Origin: Modestobacter marinus
GTDB lineage: Bacteria > Actinomycetota > Actinomycetes > Mycobacteriales > Geodermatophilaceae
Assembly (NCBI RefSeq): GCF_011758655.1
Contig: NZ_JAAMPA010000003.1
Coordinates: 186,001-250,000, forward strand
Length of the DNA stretch: 64,000 nt
Direction: 5' to 3'
The notes beneath the pieces were generated by a model that was given only the letters and a program-made list of their open reading frames with translations, was not told where the DNA came from and made no database searches. The number at the start of each line of letters is the position of its first letter. Position 1 is the stretch's first letter. This document shows positions 37,256-58,211 of the stretch, one piece after another. A program made the position numbers and the translations under genes.

Positions 37256-38272
37256 ATGACCGGTGTCGTCACCGAGCCGCCGGGCGTGAGCCCGGCCGCC
37301 GAGCTGGAGCCGCGCCTGGCCGAGCACCGGCGGGAGCTGACCGGGTACTGCTACCGGATGCTGGGGTCGTCCTTCGACGCGGAGGACGCCGTCCAGGAGA
37401 CGATGGTGCGGGCCTGGCGCTCGCTGGACCGGCTGCAGGGCGCCGGGGCGCTGCGCTCGTGGCTGTACCGGATCGCCACCAACGTCTGCCTCGACGCCCT
37501 GGACGGGCGCAAGCGGCGGGCGCTGCCGGTCGACCTGTCCGGCGGTGAGCCGAGCGCGCCGGTGGTGGCGTCCCTGGCCGGGGTGCTGCCCGACGGGGCG
37601 TGGATCCAGCCGGCGCTCGACCGCCAGGTGCTGCCCACCGGCGCCGACCCGGCCGAGCTCGCCGTCCAGCGGGAGTCGGTGAAGCTGGCGTTCGTCGCCG
37701 CGCTGCAGCACCTGCCGCCGAAGCAGCGGGCGGTGCTGATCCTGCGCGACGTGCTCCGCTGGCGGGCCGACGAGGTCGCCGGGCTGCTGGAGACGTCGGT
37801 CGCGGCGGCCAACAGCGCGCTGCAGCGGGCCCGCGCCACCCTCGCCGCCCACCGGCCCGCGGCCGACGCGCCCACGCCGGTGGTCGCCGCCGATCAGACC
37901 GAGCTGCTGGCCCGCTACCTCGACGCCTTCGAGCGGTACGACGTCGAGGCGCTGGTGGAGCTGCTGCACGAGGACGCGGTGATGGACATGCCGCCCTACG
38001 CCATGTGGCTGCGCGGCTCGGCCGACATCGCCACCTGGTACGTCGGCCCCGGGCACGGCTGCCGCGGGTCACACGTGGTGCCGCTGGAGATGAACGGCAA
38101 CCCGGCCTTCGCCCAGTGGCGGCCCAGCGGGCCGGGTGGGTCGTTCGAGCCGTGGGCGGTGCACGCCCTGGAGTTCCGCGACGGCCTGGTGGTGCGGACG
38201 ACGGCGTTCCTGGGGCCGCAGCTGTTCGAGCTGTTCGGCCTCCCGCGCAACCCGGAGCCGGCCGGCCGATGA
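37256..38272 (+). CDS. ECF sigma factor with SnoaL-like C-terminal domain (SigG type)
   Basis: A 338-aa transcription factor. Region 2: YCYRMLGSSFDAEDAVQETM, VRAWRSLDRL, SWLYRIATNVCLDALDGRKR. Region 4: LQHLPPKQRAVLILRDVLRW and EVAGLLETSVAAANSALQRA. Residues ~210-330 form a SnoaL/NTF2-like domain (YLDAFERYDVEALVELLHED) as in the SigG/SigJ groups, where it modulates activity without a classical anti-sigma factor. GGGAG precedes ATG 37256. It probably heads a unit with the two following genes. The stimulus is unknown. Confidence 0.93.
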   Translation: MTGVVTEPPGVSPAAELEPRLAEHRRELTGYCYRMLGSSFDAEDAVQETMVRAWRSLDRLQGAGALRSWLYRIATNVCLDALDGRKRRALPVDLSGGEPSAPVVASLAGVLPDGAWIQPALDRQVLPTGADPAELAVQRESVKLAFVAALQHLPPKQRAVLILRDVLRWRADEVAGLLETSVAAANSALQRARATLAAHRPAADAPTPVVAADQTELLARYLDAFERYDVEALVELLHEDAVMDMPPYAMWLRGSADIATWYVGPGHGCRGSHVVPLEMNGNPAFAQWRPSGPGGSFEPWAVHALEFRDGLVVRTTAFLGPQLFELFGLPRNPEPAGR

Positions 38273-39264: not shown

Positions 39265-39285
39265 ACCGCGCAGCAGGACGGCGCC

Positions 39286-42526: not shown

Positions 42527-42578
42527 CGCACGGCGGCGCCGCCGGTCGGCCTGCCTCGGCGAGGCACTCGCTCGATCA

Positions 42579-42630
42579 TGGAGCGGGTGACCGGGACCCG
42601 AACCGGTATGTCCAGCTCGGACGGTCAGGC
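42579..42630 (-). pseudogene. tRNA-Gly 3'-half remnant (candidate att site)
   Basis: The first 18 nt (42579-42596, ending GACCGGGA) are identical to the CCA end and T-stem side of the intact tRNA-Gly(TCC) at 57893-57966. With one inserted base the match continues through the T-loop, variable region and anticodon stem to the TCC anticodon (about 42-44 nt, several substitutions). The 5' half is absent. Same orientation as the intact tRNA, 15.3 kb away. Confidence 0.75.
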
Positions 42631-42706
42631 CGCACCTCGTGCGGGCCGTTGCCGGCGCACGTCGTCCCCACCGCCGGCGCACGTCCGTGACCGCCGGAGG
42701 GCGGGG

Positions 42707-43483
42707 TCAGGCCGGCACGGCCACCGGCTTCGCCGTCCCCTGCTCGACCCGTGCCGGGCGCCGCTGTTCGCGCAGGGCGGCGAGGGGGGCGAGCAGCAAC
42801 CCGAGGGCCACCCAGCCGGTGAGGACCCACAGCGGCCCCGCCGCTCCGGCGCCGTCGAAGAAGGCGACCGAGCGCACGGCGCTGACCGTCGCACCCGGGG
42901 GCAGCAGCTGGCCGAGGACCGACCAGCCCGCGGGCAGGGTGCGCTCGTCGCGGCCGGCAGCGGGTTGCCGAGCAGCACCATGGTGGCCGATCGGACGCCC
43001 AGGCCCGAGGTCTCCCGCCGGCGCGTACAGGCCCAGCAAGGTCCAGGCCACGGCGAGCAGCCCGAGGGCGAGCACGGCGCTGTTGGCGAGCCAGTCGCCG
43101 GCCAGGGCGCCGAGCCAGCCCTGGAACAGCCCGGCGAGGACCAGGCCCGCACCGACTGCCACGCACGCCGCGACGAGGAGGCGGGTCCGGAGGCGGGGGA
43201 GGGCTCTGCTGAGCAGCCCGGCGGTCAGCACGCCGCCCAGCCCCAGAGGAAGCGCGCCGGCGGCGAGCTCGTCGGCGATCTCGACGGCGTCTCCCGTCGT
43301 GCCCGGATCGGGGGTCGCGGGCGCCGTCTCCGGGTTCGGCCTGATCGGCTGGTACTGCTGGGTGGCCGCCGTGCTGCTGCGCCCGGCCGTGCCCGCTCGG
43401 GACGGTTCTGCGCCGAGGTCGTGATCCGGTCCAGCAAGTCGTCGGGCCGGCACCGGGCCGACGACGACGGTGGACGCCGACAA
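42707..43483 (-). pseudogene. Membrane permease (ABC-2/YhgE-like), frameshifted
   Basis: The frame contains transmembrane segments ELAAGALPLGLGGVLTAGLL, LLVAACVAVGAGLVLAGLF, LANSAVLALGLLAVAWTLLG and WVLTGWVALGLLLAPLAAL. Between ~42945 and 43040 the expected sequence (SATMVLLGNPLPAATSAP) is in another frame, with re-entry at LPAGWSVLGQLLPPGA. Two compensating indels therefore scramble about 30 residues of a conserved loop. The N-terminal ~60 residues look random, so the true start is uncertain. Transport substrate unknown. Confidence 0.6.
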
Positions 43484-43621
43484 CGAGTCGCTGACCGCCG
43501 CCGTCCGCCGGAGAGCCGCCCACCAGGCTGGCTACGACGGGCTGCGCGCACTGACCAGCACGGGCCGGTGCGGCGGATCCTGCCCGAGGGCTCGCGGGGC
43601 GCGGGTCGGCGGGAGTCACCA

Positions 43622-44080
43622 TCACCTCGTGTACCGCAGGGCTGGCTGCCCCACCTCCCTGGTCGGGGTCTCGGTCCTGGCGAGCAGGGCCATGGAGCCC
43701 TGGAAGAGGTGGCGGCGGTCGGAGACCTGCCATCCGTCGTGGGCCTCGACCAGCACCGAGCCGGCGAGGTGGAGCAGGGCGTCAGGAGCGGGCAGACGCC
43801 GACGACGTCGGTGTGGCGTTTGATCTCCTCGTCGAGTCGTTCCAGCGGGTTGGTACACGAGATCTCCTTCCAGGGCGCAACGGGGAAGCCGGTGAAGGCC
43901 AGCAGGTCCTCGACCGCGTCGCGCAGGATCGCGTCGGGAGGCGTTGCGCTGGGCGGTGCAGGCCTCGGTGCGCTCGCGCGGGCCGGCACCGATCACCGCG
44001 GTGATCTCCGCCTCGATCAACGCCGGGGAGATCGTGGTCACTGCCGACCGGATCCGGTCACCTGCGGTCCTCGTGTCCCT
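43622..44080 (-). pseudogene. IS256-family transposase remnant
   Basis: N-terminal piece PALIEAEITAVIGAGPRERT (mutator-type start) is followed, in changing frames, by the C-terminal block LLAFTGFPVAPWKEISCTNP, LERLDEEIKRHTDVVGV, LLHLAGSVLVEAHDGWQVSD and EVGQPALRYTR. The central catalytic region is deleted and several frameshifts are present. No terminal inverted repeats could be paired. Inactive debris near the left end of island 2. Confidence 0.8.
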
Positions 44081-44273
44081 GCGACGACGAGCAGGTCGAC
44101 CACTCACCGGGCGATGGGGCCAGGTGCCTCGACGTCCTGGTCATGGTGGCAGCGAGCGGCACTTCCCCCCGGCGCGGCCCGCTGGTGGCCCAGCGGCGGG
44201 AAGGGTGCGGCGTTCGGACGGGACGTCGGCCCCCGACGGCCTGTGAGGCGTTCATCCGTGGACACAGCCCACC

Positions 44274-45941
44274 TCACGCGGTCTCCGTGCCGTCGCGGCC
44301 TGCCCTGGGCGTGACCCTGTCCAGGAGGACGGCCGCACCGCTGTCGGCGGCCGCGTGGAACGGTCGCAGGACGACGTCCACCCCGGCGGCCTCGAGCCGC
44401 TCGGCATCGTGGTCGTTGTGCGCGGTGAGCGCGATGGCCCCGGTGTAGTCGGCCTGCTCGAGCCCGTTCAGCAGGCCCAGGTTGACCGACCGGTCGGGGA
44501 CGGTGCTGACCACCCAGGACGTGCCGTGCAGCGGCAGTGCGTCGATCAGCTCCGGTTCCTCGGCGTCGCCGTAGAGCGTCTGGGCCCCCTCCTCCCTGAT
44601 CTTCTCCAGGGCTTGGGGATCGGTGTCGACCACGAGGACGCCGACATCCCGGTCGAGCACGTGGCGCACCAGTCGACTGCCGTAGCGGCCGGCTCCGACG
44701 ACGATGATGTCGACGGTGGACCCGGCTGCGCCTCCTTCGTCGTCCGCATGCCGTGGCCGGGTCCGCTCGAACACCGACAGCAGCGGTGCGAGCCGGGCGA
44801 AGAGCGGCGCCGAGTACAGGATCATGTAGGTCGACAGGGCGATCGTGACGATCCCGACCGCGGTGATCAGTCCGACGGTGTCCGCGGCGATGTGGCCGAG
44901 GCTGAGGCCGAGGGCCGCCAGGACCAGGGAGAACTCGCTGATCTGCGCGACGGTCAGTCCGGCCAGGAAGCTGGTCCGCTTCCGGTAGCCCATCAGTCCC
45001 ATGATCACCAGGACGATCAACGGGTTGCCGATCAGCACGAACAGCGACAGCACCGTGGCGGCCACCAGTTGGCTGGCGGCGTCGGAGAAGTCCAGCCAGG
45101 ACCCGAGGTCGATGAAGAAGAACAGCAGCAGGAAGTCCCGGAGGCTGATCAGCCGCGATCCGATCGCCTCCCGGTAGGGGGTGGCGGCGAGGGAGATGCC
45201 GCTGAGGAAGGCCCCGACCTCGATGCTGAAGCCCAGGCGGTCGCCGAGGCCGGCCAGCGCGATTCCCCAGGCGAGGGCGAAGAGGACCAGCAGCTCCTTC
45301 GATCGGGCCATCCAGCCCAACGCCGGCCGGAGCAGGTACCGCATGGCCAGGAGGACGCCACCGACGAACAGTGCACCCTTGGCCAGAGCCAGCGCCAGGT
45401 CGGCGACCAGGTCGTCGCCCTGCCCGGCGGCGCCGACAGCGGTCAACAGGATCATCACGAGGACGACGACGATGTCCTGGACGATGAGGAAACCGACGGC
45501 GATGCGGCCGTGCAGCTGGTCGATCTCGCGTTTGTCGGACAGCAGCTTGACGATGATGATCGTGCTGGAGAACGTCAGCGCGACGGCGACGTAGATGGCC
45601 TCGACCGGGGACAGCCCCAGCATCAGCCCGAGTCCGAACCCGACGATCGAGGTGAAGGCCACCTGGCCGAGCCCGGTGGCGACGGCGACCGGCCCGGTGG
45701 TGCGGATGAGGTGCGGGTCGAGCTTGAGCCCCACCAGGAACAACAGCAGGGCGATGCCCAGCTCGGCCAGCAACGCGACCTGGTCGTTGCCCTGCACCCA
45801 CCCCAGTCCGACCGGGCCGACGAGGATGCCCACGGCGATGAAGCTGATGATCAGCGGCTGGCAGAGCTTGACCGCGGCCGCGGCGACCACTGCGGCCACC
45901 GCCAGGAGTGCGGCGATGACCTGGAACTCCTGTTCGAACAC
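44274..45941 (-). CDS. CPA2 cation:proton antiporter with TrkA-N domain (KefB/KhtU-like)
   Basis: A 555-aa membrane protein. Residues ~1-380 hold about 12 transmembrane helices of the Na/H-exchanger fold (LIISFIAVGILVGPVGLGWV, ELGIALLLFLVGLKLD, VALTFSSTIIIVKLLSDKR, GFLIVQDIVVVLVMILL). Residues ~410-530 are a Rossmann TrkA-N domain (VDIIVVGAGRYGSRLVRHVL, DTDPQALEKIREEGAQTLYG) that binds nucleotide and gates the pore. GTG 45941 has GAGGAGG about 5 nt upstream. The regulatory subunit gene lies just upstream, as in khtTU; K+ efflux is the likely role. Confidence 0.92.
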   Translation of the reverse strand: MFEQEFQVIAALLAVAAVVAAAAVKLCQPLIISFIAVGILVGPVGLGWVQGNDQVALLAELGIALLLFLVGLKLDPHLIRTTGPVAVATGLGQVAFTSIVGFGLGLMLGLSPVEAIYVAVALTFSSTIIIVKLLSDKREIDQLHGRIAVGFLIVQDIVVVLVMILLTAVGAAGQGDDLVADLALALAKGALFVGGVLLAMRYLLRPALGWMARSKELLVLFALAWGIALAGLGDRLGFSIEVGAFLSGISLAATPYREAIGSRLISLRDFLLLFFFIDLGSWLDFSDAASQLVAATVLSLFVLIGNPLIVLVIMGLMGYRKRTSFLAGLTVAQISEFSLVLAALGLSLGHIAADTVGLITAVGIVTIALSTYMILYSAPLFARLAPLLSVFERTRPRHADDEGGAAGSTVDIIVVGAGRYGSRLVRHVLDRDVGVLVVDTDPQALEKIREEGAQTLYGDAEEPELIDALPLHGTSWVVSTVPDRSVNLGLLNGLEQADYTGAIALTAHNDHDAERLEAAGVDVVLRPFHAAADSGAAVLLDRVTPRAGRDGTETA

Positions 45942-46040
45942 GGTGCCTCCTCGGCCGACCGACCGTCGCTGGTGGGCGGGGTCAACGGCCCCGGCGGCCG
46001 ACGGGGACGGTGTCCGTGCGACGCCTGCGGTCGCCGCTGC

Positions 46041-46535
46041 TCACACGGCGTCCCGGAGCTGGTGCAGGCGGCTGCGGCGGGCGGCGACGACGAGCTTGTC
46101 GCCGGCCCGGACGCTTCGGCCGTCGTCGTTCTCGACCAGTTGCGGGGTCGCATCGCAGATCACGCCGAGCAACGCTGCGTCCGGGCCGAGCCGCCTCACG
46201 ATGTCGTCGGGAGCCAGGCCCAGTGCCGGTGAGCCGCCGGCGATGGCCACTGTCTCGACGACGACCTCCGCCTGGTCCGGCGTCGTCGTAGGAGCGGCCT
46301 CACTGGTCTCGAGGGTGAAACGTGCCCCGGTGAGCAGCGCCGCCAGCACGGACGTGTGCTCGGCAGGCAGTCGGACGGTCGTGAGCGGTTCGTCCAGCCG
46401 GGGGTCGACGAGGACGAGGTGCGTGGGACCTCGGTCCTCCACGACCACCACGACCCGTCTGCCCCGGTCCGCCGGAAGGCTGTAGCGCCAGCCGATCCCC
46501 GGAAGCCGCTCAGCGTGCACGCGTACGTCGGTCAT
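46041..46535 (-). CDS. Antiporter regulatory subunit with TrkA-C domain (KhtT/AmhM-like)
   Basis: A 164-aa soluble protein. The N-terminal half (RVHAERLPGIGWRYSLPADR, VVVVVEDRGPTHLVLVD) is the KhtT-type domain. The C-terminal half is a TrkA-C/RCK_C ligand-binding domain (AIAGGSPALGLAPDDIVRRL, VRAGDKLVVAARRSRLHQLR). GGGAGG lies 4 nt before ATG 46535. It overlaps the 3' end of the ATPase gene by 26 nt and precedes the antiporter by 99 nt, forming a three-gene unit. It should control the antiporter in response to nucleotide or pH. Confidence 0.88.
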   Translation of the reverse strand: MTDVRVHAERLPGIGWRYSLPADRGRRVVVVVEDRGPTHLVLVDPRLDEPLTTVRLPAEHTSVLAALLTGARFTLETSEAAPTTTPDQAEVVVETVAIAGGSPALGLAPDDIVRRLGPDAALLGVICDATPQLVENDDGRSVRAGDKLVVAARRSRLHQLRDAV

Positions 46536-49311
46536 GGCGCCTCCCTGGGTCAACCGGCGTCGGAGGGCGGCGCGGACGGGTGGGCGCCGCCCGCCGCGCG
46601 TGCCGCGGATGGCGCAGCCACTTCTCGACCTCGACGACGGTGAAGACGACGACGCCGAGGCCGGTGATCCCCAGCCACCACGCCGGGTGGATCGGCGCGC
46701 TGTGGAACAGGTCGTTCATCCACGGCGCGTAGGTGAACAGCAGTTGCAGGCCCAGCATCGCCGTGAGACCGGCCGGCACCCAGCGGTTGCTGAACAGCCC
46801 GACCCGCCACATGGGTCGCTCCAGCGACCGGCAGTTGAGCAGGTAGGCGACCTGGACGACGACGAACACGTTGACCGCGACGGTCCGGGCGACCGCCACC
46901 GGCTCGTCCTGGCCGAGCGCCCACTCGAACAACCCGAAGGCCCCGAACAGCATGAGAGCGGAGACCAGCGCGATCCGGCCGGCGAGCGAGCGGGTGAGCA
47001 GCGGGCGTGACGACGGCACCGGTGGTCGGCGCATGACGTCGGCCTCGGGCGGCTCGAAGGCCAGCACCAGGCCCAGTGCCACGGCGGTGGTCATGTTCAC
47101 CCACAGCACCTGGACCGGGAGGATCGGCAGCGTGGTGGCCAGCGCGATGGCCGCCAGGATGACCAGTCCCTGTCCGATGCTGGTGGGCAGGATGAAGGTG
47201 ATGAACTTGCGCAGGTTGTCGAAGACGCCGCGTCCCTCCTCCACGGCGGCCTCGATGGAGGCGAAGTCGTCGTCGGTGAGGACCATGTCGGCGGCCTCCT
47301 TGGCCACCTCGGTCCCGCCCTCTCCCATCGCCACGCCGATGTCCGCCCGCCGCAGGGCGGGGGCGTCGTTGACCCCGTCGCCGGTCATCGCCACCACGTG
47401 GCCGGCGGCCTGCAGACTGCGCACCAGGCGCAGCTTCTGCTCCGGGCTCACCCGGGCGAACACCGCCGTGCCGGCCACCAGCTCGGGCAGGTCCTCGTCC
47501 GGGCAGGCCGCCAGGTCGGTCCCCGTGACCACCGTCGGCACACCGCCGTGCCCGAGGGCGAAGCGCTCTGCGATGGCGCGGGCGGTGCCGGCGTGGTCAC
47601 CGGTGATCATCTTGACCTCGATGCCGGCGTCCCGGCACGCGGACACTGCGGTGAGCGCCTCCGGTCGCGGCGGGTCGAACATGGCCTGCAGGCCCAGCAG
47701 GGTGACCCGGCCGTCGATCAGCCCCTCGGTGAGCGCGGTCGTGCTCGCCGGCATCTCGGCCCGGCCGAACGCCAGCACCCGCAGTGCCCGCCCGGCCAGC
47801 TCGTCCGCGCGGGCATGCCCCGCGTCGGTGTCGATGGCGGTCACCGTGCCGTCGCGGTCGAGCTCGTGTGTGGCCATGTCCAGCAGCCGTTCGACCGCCC
47901 CCTTGATGTAGACGACGACCCGCCCGGACTCGTCCCGGTGCAGAGTGGCCATGTACCGGCGCTCGGAGTCGAAGGGCACCGCGTCCAGGCGGGGCAGCCG
48001 CCTCCTCAGCTGGTCGGGGTCGAGGCCGGCCTTCTCCGCCGCCACGAGCAGAGCTGCCTCGGTGGGGTCGCCGGCCACCTCCCGCCGCCCGGCAGTCTCG
48101 GTCAGGTGGGTGTCGTTGCACAGCGCTCCCGCGACCAGGCACTCCCGCAACGCCGGGTGCCGCGCGAGATCGGCGGGGTCGTCGTCGTCGAGGACCTGGC
48201 CCTCGGAGGCGTAGCCGGTGCCGGTGACCGGGTGGCTCCGCCCGCCGGCCACGATGGTGGTGACCGTCATCGCGTTGGCCGTCAGTGTCCCGGTCTTGTC
48301 GGTGCAGATCACCGTGGTGCTGCCCAGGGTCTCCACCGCAGGCAGCCGGCGGATGATCGCCCGCCGGCGCGCCATCCGCGCCACCCCGATCGCCAGGGTG
48401 ATCGTCACCACCGCGGGCAGTCCCTCGGGGATGGCGCCGACGGCCAGCGCGACCGCCGCGGTCAGCATCTCGTCGACCGGCTCACCTCGCACGGTCCCCA
48501 GTGCGAAGGCCAGCGCCGCGAGCCCCAGGATGATCACCGTCAACACCCGGCTGAACCGGCCGATCTTGCGGGTCAGCGGGGTCTGCAGCACCTCCGCCTC
48601 ACCGACGAGGCGGTGGATGCGCCCGATCTCGGTGTCGGCACCCGTGGCCACCACGATCCCGTGACCACGCCCGCGGGTGACCAGGCCACCCGAGTACGCC
48701 ATGTTGGCCCGATCGGCCAGCGCGGTCTCGGCCGGCAGCGCCATGGGGACCTTCTCCACCGGCACCGACTCCCCGGTAAGGGCCGACTCGTCGATCTGCA
48801 GCTCGTGTGCGGTGACGAACCGCAGATCCGCGGGCACCCGGTCCCCGGTCTCCAGGACCACCAGGTCCCCGGGGACGAGGTCCTCGGAGGTGATCCGGCG
48901 CCGCACGCCGTCCCGGACGACCGTGGCCTGGGTGCGCACCATCGCCATCAGGGCGTTCAGCGCCTGCTCCGCACGCGTCTCCTGCACGAAGCCGATCCCC
49001 GCGTTGATCAGCACCACGGCGAGGATGACGCCGGCGTCGACCACCTCTCCCAGGAGCAGCGTCGCCACCGCGGCAGCCAGCAGCACGTAGATCAGCGGAT
49101 GGTGGAACTGCACGAGGAAGCGGACCAGTGGACCCCGGCGGTCGACCGGTGGGAGCGCGTTCGGGCCTTCCAGCTCCAGCCGCAGCGCGGCCTCGTCGAG
49201 GCCCAGACCGCGCTCGTGGTCGGTCTCGAGCAGCAGCACCACCTCGTGCACCGGCAGCTCGTGGTGATCGCCGCGCGGAGGTGGGTGGAGCGTCCGGTCC
49301 GGCGAGGCCAT
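46510..49311 (-). CDS. P2-type cation-transporting ATPase
   Basis: A 933-aa membrane pump. N-terminal cation-ATPase domain (HEVVLLLETDHERGLGLDEA), actuator loop DESALTGESVPVEK, phosphorylation motif ICTDKTGTLTANAMTV, nucleotide domain with KGAVERLL, hinge MTGDGVNDAPALRRADIGVA and about 10 transmembrane helices, including VGAIPEGLPAVVTITLAIGV with the PEGL motif of Ca/Na-K-type pumps. Length and motifs match PMR1/SERCA-like bacterial P2 ATPases (Ca2+, Mn2+, Na+ or K+; not decided). It is first in the operon with the KhtT- and KefB-like genes, which points to ion homeostasis. The C-terminal ~30 residues are Arg-rich. Confidence 0.92.
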   Translation of the reverse strand: MASPDRTLHPPPRGDHHELPVHEVVLLLETDHERGLGLDEAALRLELEGPNALPPVDRRGPLVRFLVQFHHPLIYVLLAAAVATLLLGEVVDAGVILAVVLINAGIGFVQETRAEQALNALMAMVRTQATVVRDGVRRRITSEDLVPGDLVVLETGDRVPADLRFVTAHELQIDESALTGESVPVEKVPMALPAETALADRANMAYSGGLVTRGRGHGIVVATGADTEIGRIHRLVGEAEVLQTPLTRKIGRFSRVLTVIILGLAALAFALGTVRGEPVDEMLTAAVALAVGAIPEGLPAVVTITLAIGVARMARRRAIIRRLPAVETLGSTTVICTDKTGTLTANAMTVTTIVAGGRSHPVTGTGYASEGQVLDDDDPADLARHPALRECLVAGALCNDTHLTETAGRREVAGDPTEAALLVAAEKAGLDPDQLRRRLPRLDAVPFDSERRYMATLHRDESGRVVVYIKGAVERLLDMATHELDRDGTVTAIDTDAGHARADELAGRALRVLAFGRAEMPASTTALTEGLIDGRVTLLGLQAMFDPPRPEALTAVSACRDAGIEVKMITGDHAGTARAIAERFALGHGGVPTVVTGTDLAACPDEDLPELVAGTAVFARVSPEQKLRLVRSLQAAGHVVAMTGDGVNDAPALRRADIGVAMGEGGTEVAKEAADMVLTDDDFASIEAAVEEGRGVFDNLRKFITFILPTSIGQGLVILAAIALATTLPILPVQVLWVNMTTAVALGLVLAFEPPEADVMRRPPVPSSRPLLTRSLAGRIALVSALMLFGAFGLFEWALGQDEPVAVARTVAVNVFVVVQVAYLLNCRSLERPMWRVGLFSNRWVPAGLTAMLGLQLLFTYAPWMNDLFHSAPIHPAWWLGITGLGVVVFTVVEVEKWLRHPRHARRAAPTRPRRPPTPVDPGRRHDRRTRAR

Positions 49312-49550
49312 GCCTCAGCCTCGTCGGCATCCGCTGCGGCGGGGCAGGGACCTTCGTCCAGATCGTCGGGACCAAGCGCATGGCCTTCCGATCGTCAGCC
49401 CGGTCGTCGGCACCAGGTCCAGAGATCAACGTCCCCCTCCCGGAGGGCAAGGAGTCCGGCTACGCCGGCGCGGAGCTCCGGTACTCGGACGGGCGCACCG
49501 AGATCCTCGGCTGCCCGCCGGTGGGCCACCTCGACCTCCGCTCCCCGTGC

Positions 49551-52508
49551 TCAGCCGGCCGAGGTGGCCCCAGCCGCCAGTTGATAGGCCGCGACGGCGG
49601 CCCCGAGCTCCACCAGTGCCTGCCCCAGCTCGGTGAGATCACCCGACCGTTGCGCGTCAGCCACCCGGTCGAGGGCGGTGTCGATGTCGGTCACCGCCTG
49701 GGTCAGTCGCGCATCGGTGGGACCTCCGCCGTCTGCCGTCGCGGAGGCGGCTCCGGGTGGTGGTGTCGGCTCGGGGCCGCCGCCGGGTGGTGGTGTCGAC
49801 ACGGGCCCGCCGTCGGGTGGCGGGGGCTCGGCGGCCGTCGTCGGCTCGCCCGCTCCCGCACCGAACACCTGGTCCAGGGCCTGGTCCAGGGTGTCGGCGT
49901 AGCCGATCCGGTCCGCGTAGTTGACCAGCACCTTCTGCAGCAGCGGGAATCCGCCGTCGTTCGTGCCACGTACGTAGAGCGGGGTGACGTACAGCAGGCC
50001 GGCGTCGCCGATGGGCAGGGTCAGCAGGTTCCCGAACACCGGCTCGGAGTTCTCGCTGTCGAACAGCGTGAGGTCTGGGCGCACCTGGTTGTTGGACTCG
50101 AACGCGTTCTGCACCTGCGCTGGGCCGCGGAAGGGTGTGTTCCCCGGCAGCCTCAGCACCTGGATCTCGCCGTAGGTCTCGGGATCGCTGGACGCGGAGA
50201 TGAAGGCGGAGAGGTTGTCGCGCTGGAAGGCGTTGAGCGCGCTGGTCAACTGGAACGTGGCCTCGTCGTCACCCGGCCGCTGGGCGAGGATGTAGTAGGG
50301 GGGCTGGTCCTCCTCGGTGTCCCGGGTCGGGTCGTCGGGGATCTGCCAGCGGTTGTTGGCGTTGTAGAAGTCCACCGGGTCGTCGACGTGGTACCGCGTC
50401 AGGATGTCCCGCTGCACCTTGAACAGGTCCTGCGGGTACCGCACGTGGGCGAGCAACGCGTCCGGGATGTCGCTCCGTTGTTGCACCACGCCCGGGAAGG
50501 CCTTCATGTGGGTCTGCAGGACCGGGTCCTGGGTGTCCCACTCGTAGAGCGTGACCGTGCCGTCGTAGGCGTCGACGGTCGCCTTGACCGAGTTGCGGAT
50601 GTAGTTGACCGTCTCGTCGGGCAGCGCGGTGGTCCCGGTGCCGGTGAGCGCGTCCTGCGCCGCCTCGCCCAGCTCGGTCTGCTCGGCGTACGGGTAGGAG
50701 TCCGACGTGGTGTAGGCGTCGACGATCCAGGTGATCCGGCCCGCGACCACGGCTGGGTAGGGGTCGCCGTCGACCTCGAGAAAGGGTGCGACCTTCTCGA
50801 CCCGTTCGCGTGGATCGCGGACGTAGAGCACCCGCGACTCCTCGTTGACCGCGTTCGACAGCAGGAAGTTGTGCTCTCGGTGGTGGATCGCGAAGACCAG
50901 CTACCGGAAGAAGCTGCCCACCGCGACGCCGCCCTCGCCGTCGTAGGTGTTGTTGATCTGCCTGTCGTCCGAGCCCCCCTCGGGCCGGTCGAACTCCCGC
51001 GGTGCGGCCCCCTGTGGCGCACCGACGACCGAGTAGTCCTCGATGAGCTCGCCGTAGTAGATGCGACTCTGGTCCACCTCGATGTCACCTCGCACCGGCA
51101 GGTCGCCGGTGGTGAAGTTGGGCTCGCCGCCCTCCGTGCCGGCGACCACCTGGTTCGCGGGTGCGGCCACGAAGCCGTTGCCGTGGGTGAAGACCGTGTG
51201 CCGGTTGATCCAGGTGCGCTGGTTCTCCGACAGCCCGGCGCTGTTGAGCTCGCGCAGCGCCACGACGTAGTCCCGGATCTCCCCGTCGATGGTGTACCGG
51301 TCGATGTCGAGCTTCTCGGGGAAGCCGTAGACGTTGCGGATCTGCTGGCGTGCGGTGAAGGTGTCGGTCAGGACGTTGGGGTCCAGCAGGCGGGCGTTGG
51401 GGATGGTCTCGGCGTCGTCGCGGAGCTCCGCCAGGGCGACCTCGGGATCGACGTCGCCCGTGGTCTCCTGGGCGTAGTCGACGTACTCCACACCGGCGAG
51501 CCCGTAGGCCTGACGGGTCATCTCGATGGCCCGCTCGATGTAGGGCGCCTCCTTCTCGTCGGCGCTCGGGCGGACGACGAACTGCTGGACGATCGCGGGG
51601 TAGGCCACGCTGATGACCGAGCTGGCGACCAGCAGGAGCACGAGCGAGACGGCCGGCAGCACGATGTTGCGGACGACGATGCCGGCCAAGAAGGCCAGCG
51701 CGCACACCGCGGCGGCGAAGACGAGGATCGTCTTGGGCACCAGCAGGGCGTTGACGTCGGTGTAGCCGGCCCCGGTGAACACCTCGCCGCGGTCGCTGTA
51801 GACCAGCCCGTAGCGGTCGAACCAGTAGGCAACCGACTTCAGCGCGACGAACAGACCCAGCAGCACCGACAGCTGCACCTGGGCAGCGCCGGAGAGCTTC
51901 GGGCCCGGGGTCTGCAGCCGCAGCCCGCCGAACACGTAGTGGGTGAGGACCGCACCGATCAGCGCCAGCAGCGCGATCGCGAAGCCGGCGCCCAGCAGCA
52001 ACCGGTAGAAGGGGTACTCGAAGACGAAGAAGGCCAGGTCGATCTCAAACAGTGGATCGACCTGGCCGAACGCCGTGGAGTTGCGGAACAGGAGCCAGGT
52101 CTCCCAGTTGCGCTGCGCGGCGAAGCCGGCGAGCAGGCCGAGCACCACACCGATCGCGGCCAGCGCCAGATGGCGGCGCGGCTCGATCGACTGGCGGTAG
52201 CGCTCCAGGTTCTGCTGCTCCAGGGACATGGGCCGGAACGCCGGGCGGGATCGGTAGGCCAGGTACATCGACAAGGCCACCAGGCCGCCGGTGGCCACCC
52301 CGGCCACGGCGAACAGCAACAGGCGCGTCTGCAGTTCGGTCCAGAAGACCTCGGTGTACCCGGTCTCGTCGAACCAGGCGTGGTCGACGTAGACGTCGAT
52401 CAGTGTGCTGATGGCCGCGAAAGAGACCAGCAGCACGGCGATGGCCCCGCTGACCAGCTTCGCGCGACGGGAGAGGACAGGCACCGGCGCGGGGGGGCGC
52501 ATGGCCAC
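49551..52508 (-). pseudogene. UPF0182 (COG1615) membrane protein with one in-frame amber codon
   Basis: Full frame of about 985 codons: ~7 transmembrane helices in the first 330 residues (AIAVLLVSFAAISTLIDVYV, LLLFAVAGVATGGLVALSMY, YRLLLGAGFAIALLALIGAV), a large extracytoplasmic domain and a Pro/Gly-rich acidic linker near the C-terminus. After GGVAVGSFFR a TAG (50901-50903) stands where relatives have Lys or a similar residue. The same frame then continues LVFAIHHREHNFLLSNAVNE, ESRVLYVRDPRERV to the normal end. GTG 52508 has GGAGG 8 nt upstream. Without readthrough the product stops at ~535 aa. Confidence 0.85.
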
Positions 52509-52517
52509 GGGGACCAC

Positions 52518-52874
52518 CTCCGGCTACGGCACGGTCACGGTCGTCGTCCTGGGGCACCGGCGGGCCGTTCGCCGGAGGATCTCGCTGGTCTCCTCCTCGA
52601 CAGGGACAGGGCGGCCACGGCTCCGCCCGTCAGCCACCGCCCCGCCGTCGGGGCGGTCGTGTCGAGGACCGGGGCGGGAAGGGTGCGTGGACGGTGCCTG
52701 CTCGACCCGGGCACACCGGGAGGGAGTCCTGCTGAGACACCGGCTCCCACACATCGCCACCTCCCGCGCGTTCGTCGCGGAAGCGGTCTGGTCCACCGTC
52801 TCGGGCGGCGACCCCGGGCGGGTGCCGGGATGACGGGATCGCCCTGCGGACCACTCCCCGGTTCCGGTGTCAGT
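52518..52874. other. Non-coding gap
   Basis: 357 nt between the acyltransferase stop and the UPF0182 start region, both genes on the minus strand. It must hold the UPF0182 promoter; I see no supported gene, repeat or strong hairpin. Confidence 0.35.
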
Positions 52875-54167
52875 TTAGCGAATCGCATTTCGTTCGTCCA
52901 GGCTCTCGAGCATGGTCCCGTCGGGCGCGCTGTCGATCTTGCGGCGACCCGGCCGCATCGTCCGGACGGCGCCCTGTCGCCTTCGGGGAGGACACGTCCG
53001 CGCCCTCCGGCGGTTCCTCGGCCGGCGACGTCCCCAGCGGGCCACGACCTCCACCCGGCCGACCACGGCGACCAGCGCGGCCAGCACGGCGGCCGGCGCG
53101 AGCAACCACAGCCAGCGCTGAGCCCACCACTGCGCGGTGGGCTCGGCGAGCAGCGTGCCGCCGAGGCCCTCGACGGTGCGGACGACGAGCAGCAGCGCGG
53201 TCATGTGCCAGAGGAAGACGGTGATCGCGACGACGTTCAGGGCCACGACCGGGCGCCACACGGCGGGCCGCCGCAGCAGTCGGCCGGCGGCCGGCGCGAT
53301 GAGCACCAGCAGGCCGAGCTGGAAGACCGCCAGCGCGGCGATCGCGGCGGTCGTGGGGAACATGTTCGACTCGAGGTCGCCGACCGTCGCCACCATCGAG
53401 CGCGGGTAGCCGCCGGCGGTGGTCAGCGCCACGAGGGCAAGCAGACCCGTTCCGGCGACGGCCAGCCGGTGCCGCAACGGCCGCGTGCCCAGGCCGGAGG
53501 TGCGCCAGGCACAGCCGAGCTGGTGGCAGAACAGCCAGACGAGCCCCGTGGTGACCCAGCCAGCCCCGGCCAGGCCAGTGATCCGGTCGACCGCGCTGCC
53601 GGCGGCGATCCCCAGACCCAGCAGCGCCAGCGCGAGCCCGCCGCGCCGCCGGTGCACCCGTGCGGTGACCGGCACGAGGACGACCAGGACGACGTGGACG
53701 CCGAGGAACCACAGCGGCACGAGGATGCCGGCGAACCACTCCCACACCCAGCGGTGTGGCCCCGGCAGCAGAGCCGCGACCAGTTCCACCGCCAGCCACA
53801 CCGCCACCCACACCACGGTGGGCACCAGGAGCCGGCGCAGCCGGTCGCCGAGGAAGGAGGCATCCGAGCCGCCGGCCGCCCGTGCCCGCTCCCAGGCGGC
53901 CAGGTTCGCGTACCCGCCCACGAGGAAGAAGACCGGCACCACCTGCAGCACCCAGGTGGCGAGCCAGCCGCCCGGGACGGCGTCGATCGGGTTGGGCATG
54001 ACGAGCACACCGTCGGCGGTGCGGTGGGTCACCGACAGCGTCCAGTGCCAGACGACGACGACGACGATGCTGGTCGCCCGGGCGGCGTCGACCAGCCGGT
54101 CGCGGGTGTCCGGGGTCGCGTCGGCCAGCGCGGCGAGCGACCCGGACGCGCCGCGCCGGGCGCTCAC
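52875..54167 (-). CDS. Acyltransferase 3 family membrane protein
   Basis: A 430-aa integral membrane protein with about 10 helices: DRLVDAARATSIVVVVVWHW (family start with the conserved R..D..R..A..H), VVPVFFLVGGYANLAAWERA, LLVPTVVWVAVWLAVELVA, WFLGVHVVLVVLVPVTARVH, VVAITVFLWHMTALLLV. It probably O-acylates an envelope carbohydrate or lipid. The last ~60 residues are basic and unconserved. GTG 54167 overlaps the symporter stop by 4 nt, so the two are translationally coupled and the gene ends the lipid-related operon. Confidence 0.85.
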   Translation of the reverse strand: MSARRGASGSLAALADATPDTRDRLVDAARATSIVVVVVWHWTLSVTHRTADGVLVMPNPIDAVPGGWLATWVLQVVPVFFLVGGYANLAAWERARAAGGSDASFLGDRLRRLLVPTVVWVAVWLAVELVAALLPGPHRWVWEWFAGILVPLWFLGVHVVLVVLVPVTARVHRRRGGLALALLGLGIAAGSAVDRITGLAGAGWVTTGLVWLFCHQLGCAWRTSGLGTRPLRHRLAVAGTGLLALVALTTAGGYPRSMVATVGDLESNMFPTTAAIAALAVFQLGLLVLIAPAAGRLLRRPAVWRPVVALNVVAITVFLWHMTALLLVVRTVEGLGGTLLAEPTAQWWAQRWLWLLAPAAVLAALVAVVGRVEVVARWGRRRPRNRRRARTCPPRRRQGAVRTMRPGRRKIDSAPDGTMLESLDERNAIR

Positions 54168-55048
54168 AGGAGTTCGGGGACCTTCTGCTGAGCGCGATCG
54201 TGCGCCCGGCGGAAGCCGATGGTCACGAAGGTCGCGGTGATCACCACGAACAGCGAGTAGAGCGCAGGGAGGAGCAGCACGTCCTGCTCGACGGCACCGG
54301 TGAAGGACAGCAGGACGATCGTGATGGCCAGCGGGCCGTTGACGATGCCGATCTCCAGCGCCAGCGTCCGCCGGTCGAGCACCGGCATGCCCAGCAGCCC
54401 GGCGTACCCGTAGGCGGCCGCCATGCCCAGCAGCGGGAGGCCGATCGCGCCGACGTAGACCTGCCACGGCGACTCGACCAGCAGCTGCCAGTTGCGTGGC
54501 ACCCAGGTGACCATGAGCAGGACGATGAACAGCACACCCAGCACGCTGCCCACGAGCTCGAGCGTCGCTCCGAGGTTGGCCGTCCGGCGCCGGATCCAGA
54601 GGCCGAGCAGCACGGGCAGGATCAGCAGCACCAGGCTGGCCACCACGTTCGAGGTCGGCACGTCGATGCCCTCGGCCAGCGCGCCGCCGTAGAGCAGCAG
54701 CATGAGCGGGGCGAGCACTATGGCCGCGACCGTCGTCCCGATCGTGACCACGACGCTGAGGGCGAGGTTGGCCCGGGCGAAGTAGGTGTACAGGTTCGAC
54801 GTCGTGCCGCCGGGCATGCAGCCGACGATCACCAGGCCGATCGCCAGCGCCGGGGGCAGCCGGAGCAGCCAGGCCAGCGAGAAGGCGATCAACGGCATGA
54901 TGGCGAACTGCCCCGCGACCGCCAGGGCGAGGTACCGGGGACGGTGGAGCTCGTCGCCCAGGTCGCGGAAGGTCATCGCCGCGCCCATGCCCAGCATCAC
55001 CGCGGCGAGGACGGCGGTGAGCATCGCCTGCTCGAACGGGCCGACCAC
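54164..55048 (-). CDS. Bile-acid:sodium symporter family transporter
   Basis: A 294-aa membrane protein with 9-10 helices: MLTAVLAAVMLGMGAAMTFR, FAIMPLIAFSLAWLLRLPPA, the crossover motif GLVIVGCMPGGTTSNLYTYF, LALSVVVTIGTTVAAIVLAP and a late LALEIGIVNGPLAITIVLL matching the second conserved unwound helix. Bacterial homologues take up organic anions with Na+; the cargo is unknown. GTG 55048 starts 5 nt after the acyl-CoA ligase stop; GGGAG overlaps that stop. Confidence 0.88.
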   Translation of the reverse strand: MVGPFEQAMLTAVLAAVMLGMGAAMTFRDLGDELHRPRYLALAVAGQFAIMPLIAFSLAWLLRLPPALAIGLVIVGCMPGGTTSNLYTYFARANLALSVVVTIGTTVAAIVLAPLMLLLYGGALAEGIDVPTSNVVASLVLLILPVLLGLWIRRRTANLGATLELVGSVLGVLFIVLLMVTWVPRNWQLLVESPWQVYVGAIGLPLLGMAAAYGYAGLLGMPVLDRRTLALEIGIVNGPLAITIVLLSFTGAVEQDVLLLPALYSLFVVITATFVTIGFRRAHDRAQQKVPELL

Positions 55049-55053
55049 CGCCG

Positions 55054-56823
55054 TCAGCTCCCGGCCTGCGGGGCCGGCAGCGGCGCGGCCGTCTGCGCTG
55101 CCCGGACGTCCTTGCGCAGGACCTTGCCGATCGGCGACGTGGGCAGCTCGGCGGTGAACACCACCTCGCGCGGCACCTTGTACCCGGTCAGGCGCTCCGC
55201 CGCCCACGCACGCACCTGGTCGGCGGTCAGCGCCGGGTCGGTGCGGACGACGACGGCGCGCACCCGCTCTCCGGACGCGGCGTCCGGCACGCCGACCACC
55301 GCGGCCCCGCGGATGCCCGGATGCGCGGTGAGCACCTCCTCCACCTCGGTCGGGTACACGTTGAAGCCGCTGACCAGGACCAGGTCCTTCTTCCGGTCCA
55401 CCAGGCGCACGAAGCCGTCGGCGTCCACGACGGCGATGTCGCCGGTGCGGAGCTCGCCGTCCCGCAGCACCGCAGTGGTCTCCTCCGGCCGGCGCCAGTA
55501 GCCCGCCATCACCTGCGGGCCGCGGGCGCACAGCTCCCCGGGCTCGCCGGCCGGCACGGTCCGCCCCTCGTCGTCGGCGCAGCGGAGTCCCGTCCCCGGC
55601 ACCGGGACGCCGACGGTGCCCGGCCGCGCCCGGCCGTCGAGCGGGTTGAAGCTGAGCACCGGCGAGGCCTCCGTCAGGCCGTAGCCCTCGACGACGGGGA
55701 CGCCCGTGACCTGCTCCCATCGGTGCGCGACCGAACCGTGCAGCGCCATGCCTCCAGCGACCGCCGCCCGCAGCGTCGGCGGTGGGTGGTCGAGGAACCA
55801 CTGCTCGCGGCACAGGCCGTCGAACAACGTGTTCACCCCGGTGAACCACGTGACGGGGTGGTTCTCCAGCGCTCGCTTCAGGTTGCTCAACGGCCGGGGG
55901 TTGGGGATCAGCACGTTGTGCCCCCCGCGGCGGTGGAAGCCCAGCAGGTTCACCGTGAAGGCGAACACGTGGTAGAGCGGCAGGGCGGTGAGCACCGTCT
56001 CGCGGCCGGGTCGCACCGCGTCGCCGACGAAGGCCAGCATCTGCTCGCAGTTCACCAGCAGGTTGTGGTTGGTGAGCATCGCCCCCTTGCTCACCCCGGT
56101 CGTGCCGCCGGTGTACTGCAGTGCCGCGATGTCCCCGGGGTGGAGGTCCTCCCAGTACCGACGGGCGTCGTCGTCCCCGAGCTGCGCCCGTCCCCGGCGC
56201 AGCGCATCGGCCAGCGCCGTGGCCGGGTAGGGGACCGGTGGCAGCGCCCGGTCCCAGTACCGCTGCACCAGCCGAACGATGCCGGCGACGTGGCGTGGGA
56301 GGAACTCGGTGACGCGTGCCAGGACCACGGGTGGGTTCCCGAGGGCCGGCAGCACCGGCGTCAGCCGGTCGGCGAAGAGGTCCACCACGACGATCGCGGC
56401 GACCTGGGCGTCGGCGTACTGCCGCTGCAGCTCGGCCGTGGTGTACAGCGGGTTGGTGTTCACCAGCACGCAGCCGGCCTTGAGGACGCCGAAGGCGACG
56501 ACGGGGTAGGCGAGGCAGTTGGGCATCTGCACGGCCACCCGGTCGCCTCGGGCCAGCCCGAGCTCCGCGCGCAGGTAGGCGGCGAAGGCGTCGGCGGCCC
56601 GGTCGGTCTCGGTGAAGGTGAGCCGGCCGTTCATGCCGTTGGGCAGGCAGACGGTGAACGCCGTCGCTGCCCCGTGTTCCGCAGCCGAGGCGGTGAGCAT
56701 CGCGGGGAGGCTGCCGAACGGGACATGCGGGACGGGAGGCGTGCCGCGCCGGTCCGACCGGCTCGGTAGCGTGGCTGCGTCGACACCGAGGGGCGGGACG
56801 GGCCCGTCGGGGGAGCTGCTCAC
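55054..56823 (-). CDS. Long-chain fatty-acid-CoA ligase (FadD-like)
   Basis: A 589-aa ANL-superfamily enzyme activating a carboxylic acid to its CoA thioester through an acyl-adenylate. P-loop YTGGTTGVSKGAMLTNHN, A5-type VVEGYGLTEASPVLSFNP, LRTGDIAVVDADGFVRLVDR, KDLVLVSGFNVYPTEVE and the catalytic Lys in PTSPIGKVLRKDVR are all present. The N-terminal PNCLAYPVVAFGVLKAGCVL fits long-chain FadD. ATG 56823 overlaps the lipoprotein stop by 4 nt. The operon (lipoprotein, ligase, Na+ symporter, acyltransferase) suggests uptake and attachment of an acid. Confidence 0.92.
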   Translation of the reverse strand: MSSSPDGPVPPLGVDAATLPSRSDRRGTPPVPHVPFGSLPAMLTASAAEHGAATAFTVCLPNGMNGRLTFTETDRAADAFAAYLRAELGLARGDRVAVQMPNCLAYPVVAFGVLKAGCVLVNTNPLYTTAELQRQYADAQVAAIVVVDLFADRLTPVLPALGNPPVVLARVTEFLPRHVAGIVRLVQRYWDRALPPVPYPATALADALRRGRAQLGDDDARRYWEDLHPGDIAALQYTGGTTGVSKGAMLTNHNLLVNCEQMLAFVGDAVRPGRETVLTALPLYHVFAFTVNLLGFHRRGGHNVLIPNPRPLSNLKRALENHPVTWFTGVNTLFDGLCREQWFLDHPPPTLRAAVAGGMALHGSVAHRWEQVTGVPVVEGYGLTEASPVLSFNPLDGRARPGTVGVPVPGTGLRCADDEGRTVPAGEPGELCARGPQVMAGYWRRPEETTAVLRDGELRTGDIAVVDADGFVRLVDRKKDLVLVSGFNVYPTEVEEVLTAHPGIRGAAVVGVPDAASGERVRAVVVRTDPALTADQVRAWAAERLTGYKVPREVVFTAELPTSPIGKVLRKDVRAAQTAAPLPAPQAGS

Positions 56824-57374
56824 AGCAGGTCCTCCTCCCCGGTCTCCCGGTGGAAGTCGAACGCGGGGGCGCGCGGCTGGAGCCCCGGCGCCGGGGCGGT
56901 GATGGCGCGCACCGTCGTCTCGCCGGCCCGGGCGAAGGTGAGTGTCAGCTCCACCGAGTGGGCCGCGGTCCTCCGTTCGGCGAGCCCGGTCAGGGTGACG
57001 GTGGGGCCCTCCGGGTCGCTGCCCACGAAGACCTTCGCGTCGGACGGGAGGGAGAGGCCCGGTCCACCTCCGCCGGCCCCGATCGTCGCGCCGGTGAACG
57101 GTGCACCGGTCACGGCGACCAGCTCGTCGTCGACGCGACCGCCGTTGACGATGACCATGGTGAGCTCGACCGGATCACCTGGGTCGTGGACGCCGTCGGG
57201 TGGGTGGGCCAGCGCCGCTGCGCGCACGGTGATGTCCCCGATCCGGGTGGTGCCGCCCGTGCGGTCACGCTCCTGCGTGGCGGTCTGGGCGACCTGCCCC
57301 GCGCTGCACCCGCTGAGCACCAGGGCCGCGATCGGGAGCACGGCGACCAGCGCTGCCCGCCGTTTCCGGATCAC
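56820..57374 (-). CDS. Exported lipoprotein
   Basis: A 184-aa protein starting VIRKRRAALVAVLPIAALVL then SGCSAG: a type II signal with lipobox LSGC. The mature part is beta-rich (RIGDITVRAAALAHPPDGV, LTMVIVNGGRVDDELVAVTG, VFVGSDPEGPTVTLTGL), resembling the copper-chaperone PCuAC-like or DUF461 fold of actinobacterial lipoproteins, although the metal-binding Met/His residues are not evident. GTG 57374 overlaps the TGA of the preceding short gene; its stop overlaps the fadD start. Confidence 0.8.
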   Translation of the reverse strand: MIRKRRAALVAVLPIAALVLSGCSAGQVAQTATQERDRTGGTTRIGDITVRAAALAHPPDGVHDPGDPVELTMVIVNGGRVDDELVAVTGAPFTGATIGAGGGGPGLSLPSDAKVFVGSDPEGPTVTLTGLAERRTAAHSVELTLTFARAGETTVRAITAPAPGLQPRAPAFDFHRETGEEDLL

Positions 57375-57572
57375 TGCGCTGCCCCCGGGGGCAGCCCCGC
57401 CCGATCCGCCAGGACGTCGACGCCGTCCATCCAGGGGACTCGGGGCGCGCGGCTGTGCACCCGCCTCACGACCGCGCCCACGAGCCGGCCCGGAGGGGGC
57501 GTCGAGCGCGGGGTCGTCGTGCCACGGCTGCGGTCCGGACGCCGGTCGCGGGGCCCTGCTGATCGAGGTCAT
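57371..57572 (-). pseudogene. Short gene upstream of the lipoprotein, probably frameshifted
   Basis: ATG 57572 has GGGGAG 7 nt upstream and a TATAAG -10 element further up, so expression looks real. It begins MTSISRAPRPASGPQPWHDD then PALDAPSG. After ~57495 the coding-like sequence moves one frame over (LVGAVVRRVHSRAPRVPWMD, GVDVLADRAGLPPGAAQ) and ends in a TGA overlapping the lipoprotein GTG. In its own frame it would run into the lipoprotein as an implausible N-terminal extension. One indel is the simplest explanation. Family unknown. Confidence 0.4.
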
Positions 57573-57892
57573 GATCACGCTCCCCTGCAGTGTGCACTTA
57601 TAGCGCAGATTGTTACGCGAAAAGCTCATCATGTGAAGGCGTGCGGGCGTCCCCTGGTTCACGTCATGGGTACGGGAGCACGGTCCGGACGAGTCATCGA
57701 CCGAGCCGCTCGTCCGATGTGAGCAGGACCGGTACGAGGAGCCGCGCCCCCGTCGCCCGACGGGACGGATGCCGCCCTGTCGTGGCCGGTCCATGACCCG
57801 AGTGGCGTGGGTCGACGCAGGAGGAGAGGGCGTCGACGACGACGGCCCGTCGACCCCCGGGGTGATGGCGGGCCGCGCCTGCAGTTCGTGCG
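57573..57892. other. Gap with promoter of the lipid-related operon
   Basis: 320 nt before tRNA-Gly. On the minus strand TATAAG (57602-57597) lies 25-30 nt before ATG 57572 in an A/T-richer patch; no good -35. Nothing else is supported. Confidence 0.4.
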
Positions 57893-57966
57893 TGGAGCGG
57901 GTGACCGGGATCGAACCGGCATGGCCAGCTTGGAAGGCTGGGGCTCTACCATTGAGCTACACCCGC
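57893..57966 (-). tRNA. tRNA-Gly (anticodon TCC)
   Basis: A complete cloverleaf: acceptor GCGGGTG / CACCCGC, D-arm with AATGGTAGAGC, anticodon loop CTTCCAA (TCC, reads GGA), T-loop TTCGATC, discriminator T, and an encoded CCA end (57893-57895 complement). Its 3' half is the template of the remnant at 42579. Confidence 0.95.
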
Positions 57967-58042: not shown

Positions 58043-58116
58043 CGGGGTGTAGCGCAGCTTGGTAGCGCACCTGCTTTGGGAGCAGGGGGCCGCAGGTTCA
58101 AATCCTGTCACCCCGA
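58043..58116 (+). tRNA. tRNA-Pro (anticodon TGG)
   Basis: Acceptor CGGGGTG / CACCCCG, D-arm with TTGGTAGCGC, anticodon loop TTTGGGA (TGG, reads CCA), T-loop TTCAAAT, discriminator A. CCA is not encoded. A divergent tRNA-Gly lies 76 bp away. Confidence 0.95.
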
Positions 58117-58211
58117 CACCGCCGTGAGGTCTGGAAGACTCGCGGGCACGATCGGCCACCGTCCCCACGGAGGCCGCGCCCACCCCCGTCGTACCTGAGG
58201 AGCACGCCGCT

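Follow-up and report, generated by a model that had tools for sequence, protein, structure and literature searches.

Islands that use tRNA genes as targets have been described in several forms. In the tRNA-targeted islands of Islander (PMC4383910), an island lies between an intact tRNA gene and a displaced 3′ fragment of it, with an attachment subsite that can be centred on the anticodon, and an integrase is demanded inside the island; 4 tandems of three or more are given there for 2168 genomes. In the accretion of integrative conjugative elements (ICEs) and cis-mobilizable elements (CIMEs) (PMC5704250), the CIME has no integration or transfer genes, is placed between attachment (att) sites in a tandem locus and has a related ICE in relatives. 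In the additive flexible genomic islands of Alteromonas (PMC4119200, PMC5217437) cassettes are added at a conserved tRNA, in the same place across species, and in the Methylophilaceae (PMC10872708) tRNA-Lys 3′-end repeats go with cassettes at a conserved tRNA. Tycheposons, which PMC10872708 describes at second hand, are tRNA-adjacent cargo islands with a tyrosine recombinase. Here we describe a 15.3-kb stretch of Modestobacter marinus bracketed by an intact tRNA-Gly(TCC) gene and a decayed copy of its 3′ half, within 64,000 nucleotides of contig NZ_JAAMPA010000003.1 (the window). It is very probably an old, integrase-less, CIME-like island, probably immobile, at an additive integration hotspot.

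With the Islander islands the window shares the intact tRNA gene, the displaced 3′ fragment in the same orientation and the anticodon-centred site, but it has no internal tyrosine integrase. In the traits named above it is CIME-like, with att sites that are putative and of which the distal one is degenerate, and its own genome has no ICE at the locus. There are candidates for both attL and attR; the distal site differs at 6 of 46 columns and lacks the flanking motif; integration and transfer genes, which a CIME has lost, were not found in the window, where they would formerly have been present. The likeness to the Alteromonas and Methylophilaceae islands concerns another lineage and another tRNA, and here an ICE with a matching att site is seen in a relative (G021); unlike Tycheposons, the window has no recombinase. 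The kind of system is already known. In the Geodermatophilaceae it is apparently undescribed at the level of a title search: no description of it was among the titles found for the family combined with ICE, tRNA-Gly, genomic island or integrase, and neither 'Geodermatophilus' nor 'tRNA-Gly' occurs in the main text of an ICE survey of the Actinobacteria (PMC3218068).

A decayed tRNA-Gly fragment and the probable crossover point

The window fragment aligns with nucleotides (nt) 30-74 of tRNA-Gly(TCC) at 40 of 46 identical columns, with five mismatches and one inserted base, and its last 18 nt, the CCA end, are identical to the intact gene. Both copies are on the same strand, spaced 15.27 kb apart, and the order across the bracket runs from the tRNA 3′ end through the enclosed DNA to the 3′ fragment. 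The first-pass annotation had reported this recurrence, with its 18 identical nt and one insertion, and had both copies in matching orientation with the tRNA 3′ ends correctly facing the enclosed DNA; the alignment confirms all of this, and of the span it gave, 42579-42630, the start holds while the end is about 6 nt too generous (the alignment stops at 42624). Nor is the fragment a dispersed repeat in its own genome, a possibility that the annotation had raised: in the whole 5.1-Mb genome the top other match is the intact gene, at E 3.8e-8, and the next has E 0.005. A low-threshold scan of 38272-57892 yielded no convincing second tRNA-Gly relic. On the other side, tRNA-Pro(TGG) at 58043-58117 (+) neighbours tRNA-Gly(TCC) and is followed by tig.

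Chance similarity is a natural concern in a high-GC genome. Given the genome-wide E value and a local-alignment score of 60, against best scores of 25.2 ± 2.3 and a maximum of 35 in a null built by resampling one congener locus of 20 kb (L013) 60 times with a Markov model, its probability is negligible. A tandem tRNA-Gly duplicate that decayed without any mobile element would account for the degenerate state of the fragment, but similarity begins at nt 30 with no trace of a 5′ half, partial copies begin at tRNA nt 17-30 in 39 of the 42 rows compared (the window's included; L085 repeats L052 and was kept; L080 is a 5′ half), and no second intact tRNA-Gly(TCC) was seen at the position of the fragment in congener tracts, of which 16 of 17 hold one intact gene and the 17th, a short tract, none. 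We regard such a duplicate as highly improbable, and both readings were rejected on the genome-wide E value, the resampling null and the nt-30 start of similarity. The fragment is best read as an attachment-site remnant.

Relatives indicate where the crossover may lie. In G007 and G004 the DNA beside the intact tRNA includes a stretch of 5.2-5.3 kb that has 86-87% identity to one beside an isolated fragment in G054 (G, C and L numbers denote genomes, contigs and loci); this 5.2-kb homologous stretch spans two congeners and another genus, its homology starts at tRNA nt 26 in all three, and no fragment marks its far end. In G043 (G043:C1) a stranded tRNA-Gly 5′ half, nt 1-38 (L080 6215-6252), lies 37.5 kb away from the intact gene (L081 8763-8836). 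Because the homology starts at nt 26 and the G043 5′ half ends at nt 38, sequence comparison would place the crossover within nt 26-38, the anticodon stem-loop, which is among the attachment subsites listed by Islander (PMC4383910).

An integration hotspot, its integrases and its arrays

The gene tig was found in 18 of the 23 genomes of the genus, M. marinus included, and the stretch upstream of it was taken from the other 17; five of these tracts are short at contig ends (L010, L015, L018, L020 and L024). The recurrent order is rpiB, DinB, GNAT, MmcQ, response regulator, kinase, hypothetical, sigma factor, tRNA-Gly, tRNA-Pro and tig, with single genes missing in some congeners. The sigma-factor flank, reached in 12 of the 17 tracts (in G002 across a contig gap) and in G054, is always on the tRNA-Gly 3′ side, directly or past an insert. 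In one of these 12 congeners, G018, the site is near-empty, the sigma-factor match stopping 94 bp from the tRNA. In other congeners the gap between the tRNA and the closest conserved flank gene, either the sigma factor or its DHFR-like neighbour, is small (about 0.75 kb in G003, 1.0 kb in G009, 1.3 kb in G008), mid-sized (5.1 kb in G017, 5.3 kb in G019, 6.3 kb in G015, 10.4 kb in G022) or large (18 kb in G016, about 21 kb in G005, 60 kb in G021). The inserts differ among congeners, one stretch being common to G016, G017 and G019 at 94-95%, and the G022 insert contains a second 3′ fragment (nt 27-74, 94%). No close match to the antiporter, ATPase, UPF0182 and lipid genes of the window was found in the tracts of the 17 congeners, where weak family matches (26-35%) occur, for example in G021 and G005. 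Sporadic presence together with a near-empty site in relatives, the pattern of a tRNA-integrated genomic island, is found here by gene order.

The best-preserved insert is that of G021. Its intact tRNA is at C8:116747, and nt 26-72 of the tRNA are repeated perfectly over 47 nt at C8:56273-56319, about 135 bp from the sigma-factor match and 60 kb from the intact tRNA. Between these marks are a tyrosine integrase (PF00589), a TrwC relaxase-helicase-primase and a TraG/TraD coupling protein. Two P-type ATPases for heavy metals, LysM and M23 proteins, and a T2SSE-type ATPase accompanied by two T2SSF proteins are encoded there as well. By gene content this 60-kb insert looks like a complete ICE.

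Related integrases stand beside tRNA-Gly sequences elsewhere. The G004 integrase, 85% identical to that of G021 over 389 amino acids (aa), adjoins a weak fragment 44 kb from the tRNA, which scores 38 with the window tRNA and 58 with a variant tRNA, and the intact tRNA of G043 has a related integrase (62%) immediately upstream. The integrases fall into two groups, G021/G004/G043 and G072/G074, with about 40% identity between them; the second likewise lies near tRNA-Gly fragments in both of its genomes. Searches with six integrases found one in 6 of 77 loci. The G021 integrase, scanned against genome contigs, has matches at 15 loci including its own; the titles of their records name Modestobacter, Blastococcus, Geodermatophilus, Klenkia and, unverified, one 'Bacillus'; tRNA-Gly sequence lies within flanks of up to 5 kb at seven. 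Three of these loci (L092, L093 and L098, from Klenkia terrae, Blastococcus aggregatus and Blastococcus sp. MG754426) are 99.99% identical over 11.1 kb, and L096 is 99.2% identical; the 99.99% identity suggests either very recent transfer or contamination. At L117-L118 in G074, a second-group integrase was seen in a tRNA-Gly array beside a GmrSD-type restriction gene and a transposase of the IS110 type (IS, insertion sequence).

The Geodermatophilaceae, known for stone- and desert-dwelling bacteria, carry tRNA-Gly 3′ halves widely. A 3′-half pattern that allows up to 1 mismatch occurs in 96 of 112 family genomes and its reversed control in none of them; 60 genomes have at least two matches, 26 at least three, and the maximum is seven; the M. 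marinus genome has one, necessarily the intact gene, the window fragment being too decayed for the pattern. In all nine one-contig genomes with at least two matches, all matches are on one strand. In G054 the interval from the tRNA to the same sigma-factor flank contains four fragments; four precede that flank in G002, whose tRNA is at the end of another contig, and three occur in 41 kb beside the tRNA in G074. Variable cassettes, tRNA 3′ repeats and the same locus, the marks of an additive island, come together in the G054 array and, across the contig gap, in that of G002. The 26 of 112 genomes with at least three matches stand against the 4 tandems in 2168 genomes of Islander (PMC4383910), two figures that are not strictly comparable, as Islander requires an integrase per member and not all matches here are established as members of arrays.

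Cargo sampled from the arrays includes metabolic, transport, envelope, regulatory, DNA methylation and restriction (GmrSD) genes. No integrase was among the 14 proteins scanned in the G054 array or the 11 in the G002 array, and two of the nine scanned in the G074 array are integrases, one of them 93 bp from a fragment; from this sample of array proteins, integrase-less cassettes in relatives' arrays are likely. The G002 tRNA-Gly(TCC) itself (L010 747-820, G002:C64) has a 3′ half that deviates (92% to the window gene) and matches the fragments of its own array, and may be a hybrid tRNA that an incoming element left behind.

Sequence motifs also accompany the partial copies. Within 80 nt upstream, CTGACCAGC (at most 1 mismatch) was found for 24 of the 42 partial rows and for 0 of 25 intact genes, with a mean of 0.5 and a maximum of 3 in 50 shuffles; short search loci, repeats and near-copies (L001-L008, L026-L032, L053-L064, L087, L093 and L096-L098) were left out of the count. 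Three recurrent end motifs follow the CCA of tRNA-Gly genes and fragments in relatives, around CTGACCAGC, GCAGGTCA and CGGGACACCGT, and are perhaps arm-type integrase sites or marks of three element families.

In the mechanism that we propose, a tyrosine recombinase would insert an element at the tRNA-Gly(TCC) anticodon stem-loop. A copy of the 3′ half carried by the element would restore the tRNA, and the 3′ half of the host would be displaced to the far end, in the window at 42579-42624. New elements may then repeatedly use the restored tRNA or the displaced fragment, so that cassettes would accumulate in the interval bounded by the tRNA and the sigma-factor gene. Integration could be driven, in cis or in trans, by a conjugative element of the G021 type with its integrase. 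Which integrase inserted the window island is inferred, as are its arrival by conjugation, the order and number of arrivals and its present immobility.

More tentatively, and in our estimate doubtfully, the anticodon stem-loop of tRNA-Gly(TCC) could be an open cassette-capture platform for the whole family, with the window island as one of its fossil cassettes. Related integrases, one group of them on a conjugative element of the type IV secretion system kind, would act in trans to carry metabolic cassettes without an integrase from one tRNA-Gly site to another and across genera. Such a platform would capture cassettes as an integron does, but the cassettes would be of several kb and the recombination site would be a tRNA half. 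One worn tRNA fragment leads to a family-wide, testable hotspot, at which a single tRNA gene marks the entry point of accessory transport and metabolism genes in these genomes. The integrases point to a natural site for site-specific integration, and elements with and without an integrase offer material for asking whether cassettes move in trans.

History of the cargo and weight of the evidence

The cargo is sparsely distributed. The best congener match of KefB is 30% identical, and KefB is present at E 1e-60 or better in 5 of 112 family genomes, its own included. The block of acyl-CoA ligase, symporter and acyltransferase has long DNA matches (3.0-3.7 kb, 82%) in G054 and G084 only, with short matches in 11 other genomes, in a search that scored two candidates per genome. 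UPF0182, as a rule a single-copy gene, is found at E 1e-100 in 108 genomes, with two copies in M. marinus and G054 only; in a tree of 22 rows both extra copies group together (100/99), apart from the 20 others. In G054 the antiporter/ATPase genes, the lipid block and the extra UPF0182 all fall within 60 kb, and a tRNA-Gly fragment precedes the ATPase by 4.7 kb; the set therefore has a common history. Near the antiporter in G041, G042 and G061 there was no tRNA-Gly fragment in the stretches examined. Identity to G054 at four-fold sites is 0.76-0.81 for KefB, TrkX and the ATPase, and 0.49-0.64 for UPF0182 and the lipid genes (the ligase over 282 aa only), close to the 0.42-0.59 of six core genes. 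By this measure the antiporter module shared an ancestor with that of G054 much later than the other modules did.

The gene for beta-amylase ends about 50 bp from the window fragment, outside the bracket, and is found in 16 of 112 family genomes (15 others besides M. marinus). Because 0 of 22 congeners carry it, it is also foreign, and the acquired stretch is larger than the bracket. Eleven of the 15 other loci were taken with 1.5-kb flanks: in one (G070, L074) the gene is followed at 780 bp by a tRNA-Gly fragment, and the other ten have none at score 34, L059 having a 16-nt exact match to the tRNA end. The window fragment may mark where an older beta-amylase cassette and the later island meet.

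On another account, the fragment would be the fossil of that older event alone, the end of the beta-amylase cassette, and the modules would have entered later by homologous recombination or IS256 transposition. The fragment following the beta-amylase of G070, the IS256 remnants that adjoin the window fragment, the unequal divergence of the modules and the lack of end motifs in the window all suit it. The mapped congeners, however, have variable DNA on the tRNA 3′ side, their best-preserved insert being an integrase element between tRNA and fragment, and the antiporter module of G054 is also close to a tRNA-Gly fragment. We hold this account to be improbable, and prefer the tRNA-integrated island that the first-pass annotation had proposed: the hotspot is near-empty in G018, integrase and conjugation genes lie between the same marks in G021, the island genes lack close matches here in the tracts taken from 17 congeners, and IS256 remnants stand at the distal end.

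Several observations weigh against the preferred island. Module divergences from G054 differ, so that the content is a mosaic rather than one clean unit; the first-pass claim that the operons arrived as one island is not supported in that form, though they may have come in a single arrival of an already mosaic island, and with beta-amylase the foreign DNA extends past the bracket. Six integrases of both groups, used as queries, gave no match or integrase remnant in the window, and a Pfam scan of 13 enclosed open reading frames gave no integrase and no integration or transfer genes. The integrase may have been lost later, as the first-pass annotation claimed; relatives' cassettes occur with one (G074) and, among the proteins scanned, without one (G054, G002). 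The compositional bias that the annotation looked to for 42.6-57.9 kb is not there: the GC content of the island is 0.722, as in the rest of the window, no 4-mer anomaly sets it apart, and composition was rejected as support. A near-empty form of its empty site is present in G018 by gene order, on which this state rests, and aligns weakly at the junction: the 94 bp after the G018 tRNA score 37 with DNA beyond the window fragment (shuffles 24.3 ± 4.3), and with DNA beyond the G021 fragment 36 against 34.4 for shuffles, no alignment. Eight of the 15 integrase loci have no tRNA-Gly sequence in flanks of up to 5 kb, and four of the seven that do are the near-identical copies. Some fragments are remote from the tRNA, at 1.47-1.52 and 2.54 Mb in G054 (tRNA at 1.66 Mb) and at 2.67 and 2.74 Mb in G070 (tRNA at 1.63 Mb), and are unexplained by a simple accretion picture. 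Finally, upstream of the window fragment CTGACCAGC has 3 mismatches and is not matched, and the post-tRNA end motifs do not occur at the window's own ends.

Alignment of empty-site junctions was set aside as evidence. The post-tRNA sequences of G018 and six other congeners, each compared with both window ends, gave 14 comparisons. Three of them exceeded the shuffles by 2.5-4 standard deviations (sd), namely those of the fragment side with G018 and G019 and that of the tRNA side with G003; the others stayed below 2 sd.

Genes inside and beside the bracket

Table 1. Features of the island and its surroundings, in window coordinates
Feature	Position	Strand	Basis
Intact tRNA-Gly(TCC), putative reconstituted target gene, island proximal end	57893..57966	-	ARAGORN
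Decayed tRNA-Gly nt 30-74 (anticodon loop to CCA), putative displaced target end, island distal end	42579..42624	-	alignment
Enclosed island, 15,268 bp	42625..57892		between both tRNA marks
IS256/Mutator transposase remnant, N-terminal piece (profile 19-65)	43622..44107	-	Pfam PF00872
IS256/Mutator transposase remnant, C-terminal piece (profile 310-356), other frame	43225..43989	-	Pfam, DNA match to G001
KefB-type Na+(K+)/H+ antiporter with TrkA-N domain	44274..45941	-	PF00999, PF02254
Small protein beside antiporter	46041..46553	-	no Pfam match; conserved next to antiporter in G054, G061
P-type cation ATPase	46510..49311	-	Pfam; 91% in G054
Second UPF0182 copy, in-frame TAG at 50901-50903, pseudogene-like	49551..52517	-	Pfam, sequence comparison
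Acyltransferase 3 family protein (start uncertain)	52875..54107	-	PF01757
Sodium/bile-acid symporter family protein (start uncertain)	54164..55040	-	PF01758
AMP-binding acyl-CoA ligase	55054..56823	-	PF00501
Probable lipoprotein (by eye; start uncertain)	56820..57400	-	no Pfam match
Beta-amylase (GH14), cargo outside bracket	41039..42526	+	PF01373
Sigma factor, conserved flank gene marking the hotspot's distal edge	37301..38272	+	recurrence in congeners

A relative of the probable lipoprotein sits near the same genes in G054 and G084. The IS256 remnants are located within the distal end of the island: window positions 43637-43936 and 43933-44060 match a congener copy at G001:C72:28538-28838 and 29569-29696, relative to which about 0.73 kb is missing between the pieces. 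The region 43225-44107 is an IS256-family transposase remnant with a large internal deletion, its pieces differing in frame. Elsewhere in the window, the GC content of positions 8001-28000 is 0.67-0.73 in 2-kb steps, below that of either flank (about 0.74-0.78).

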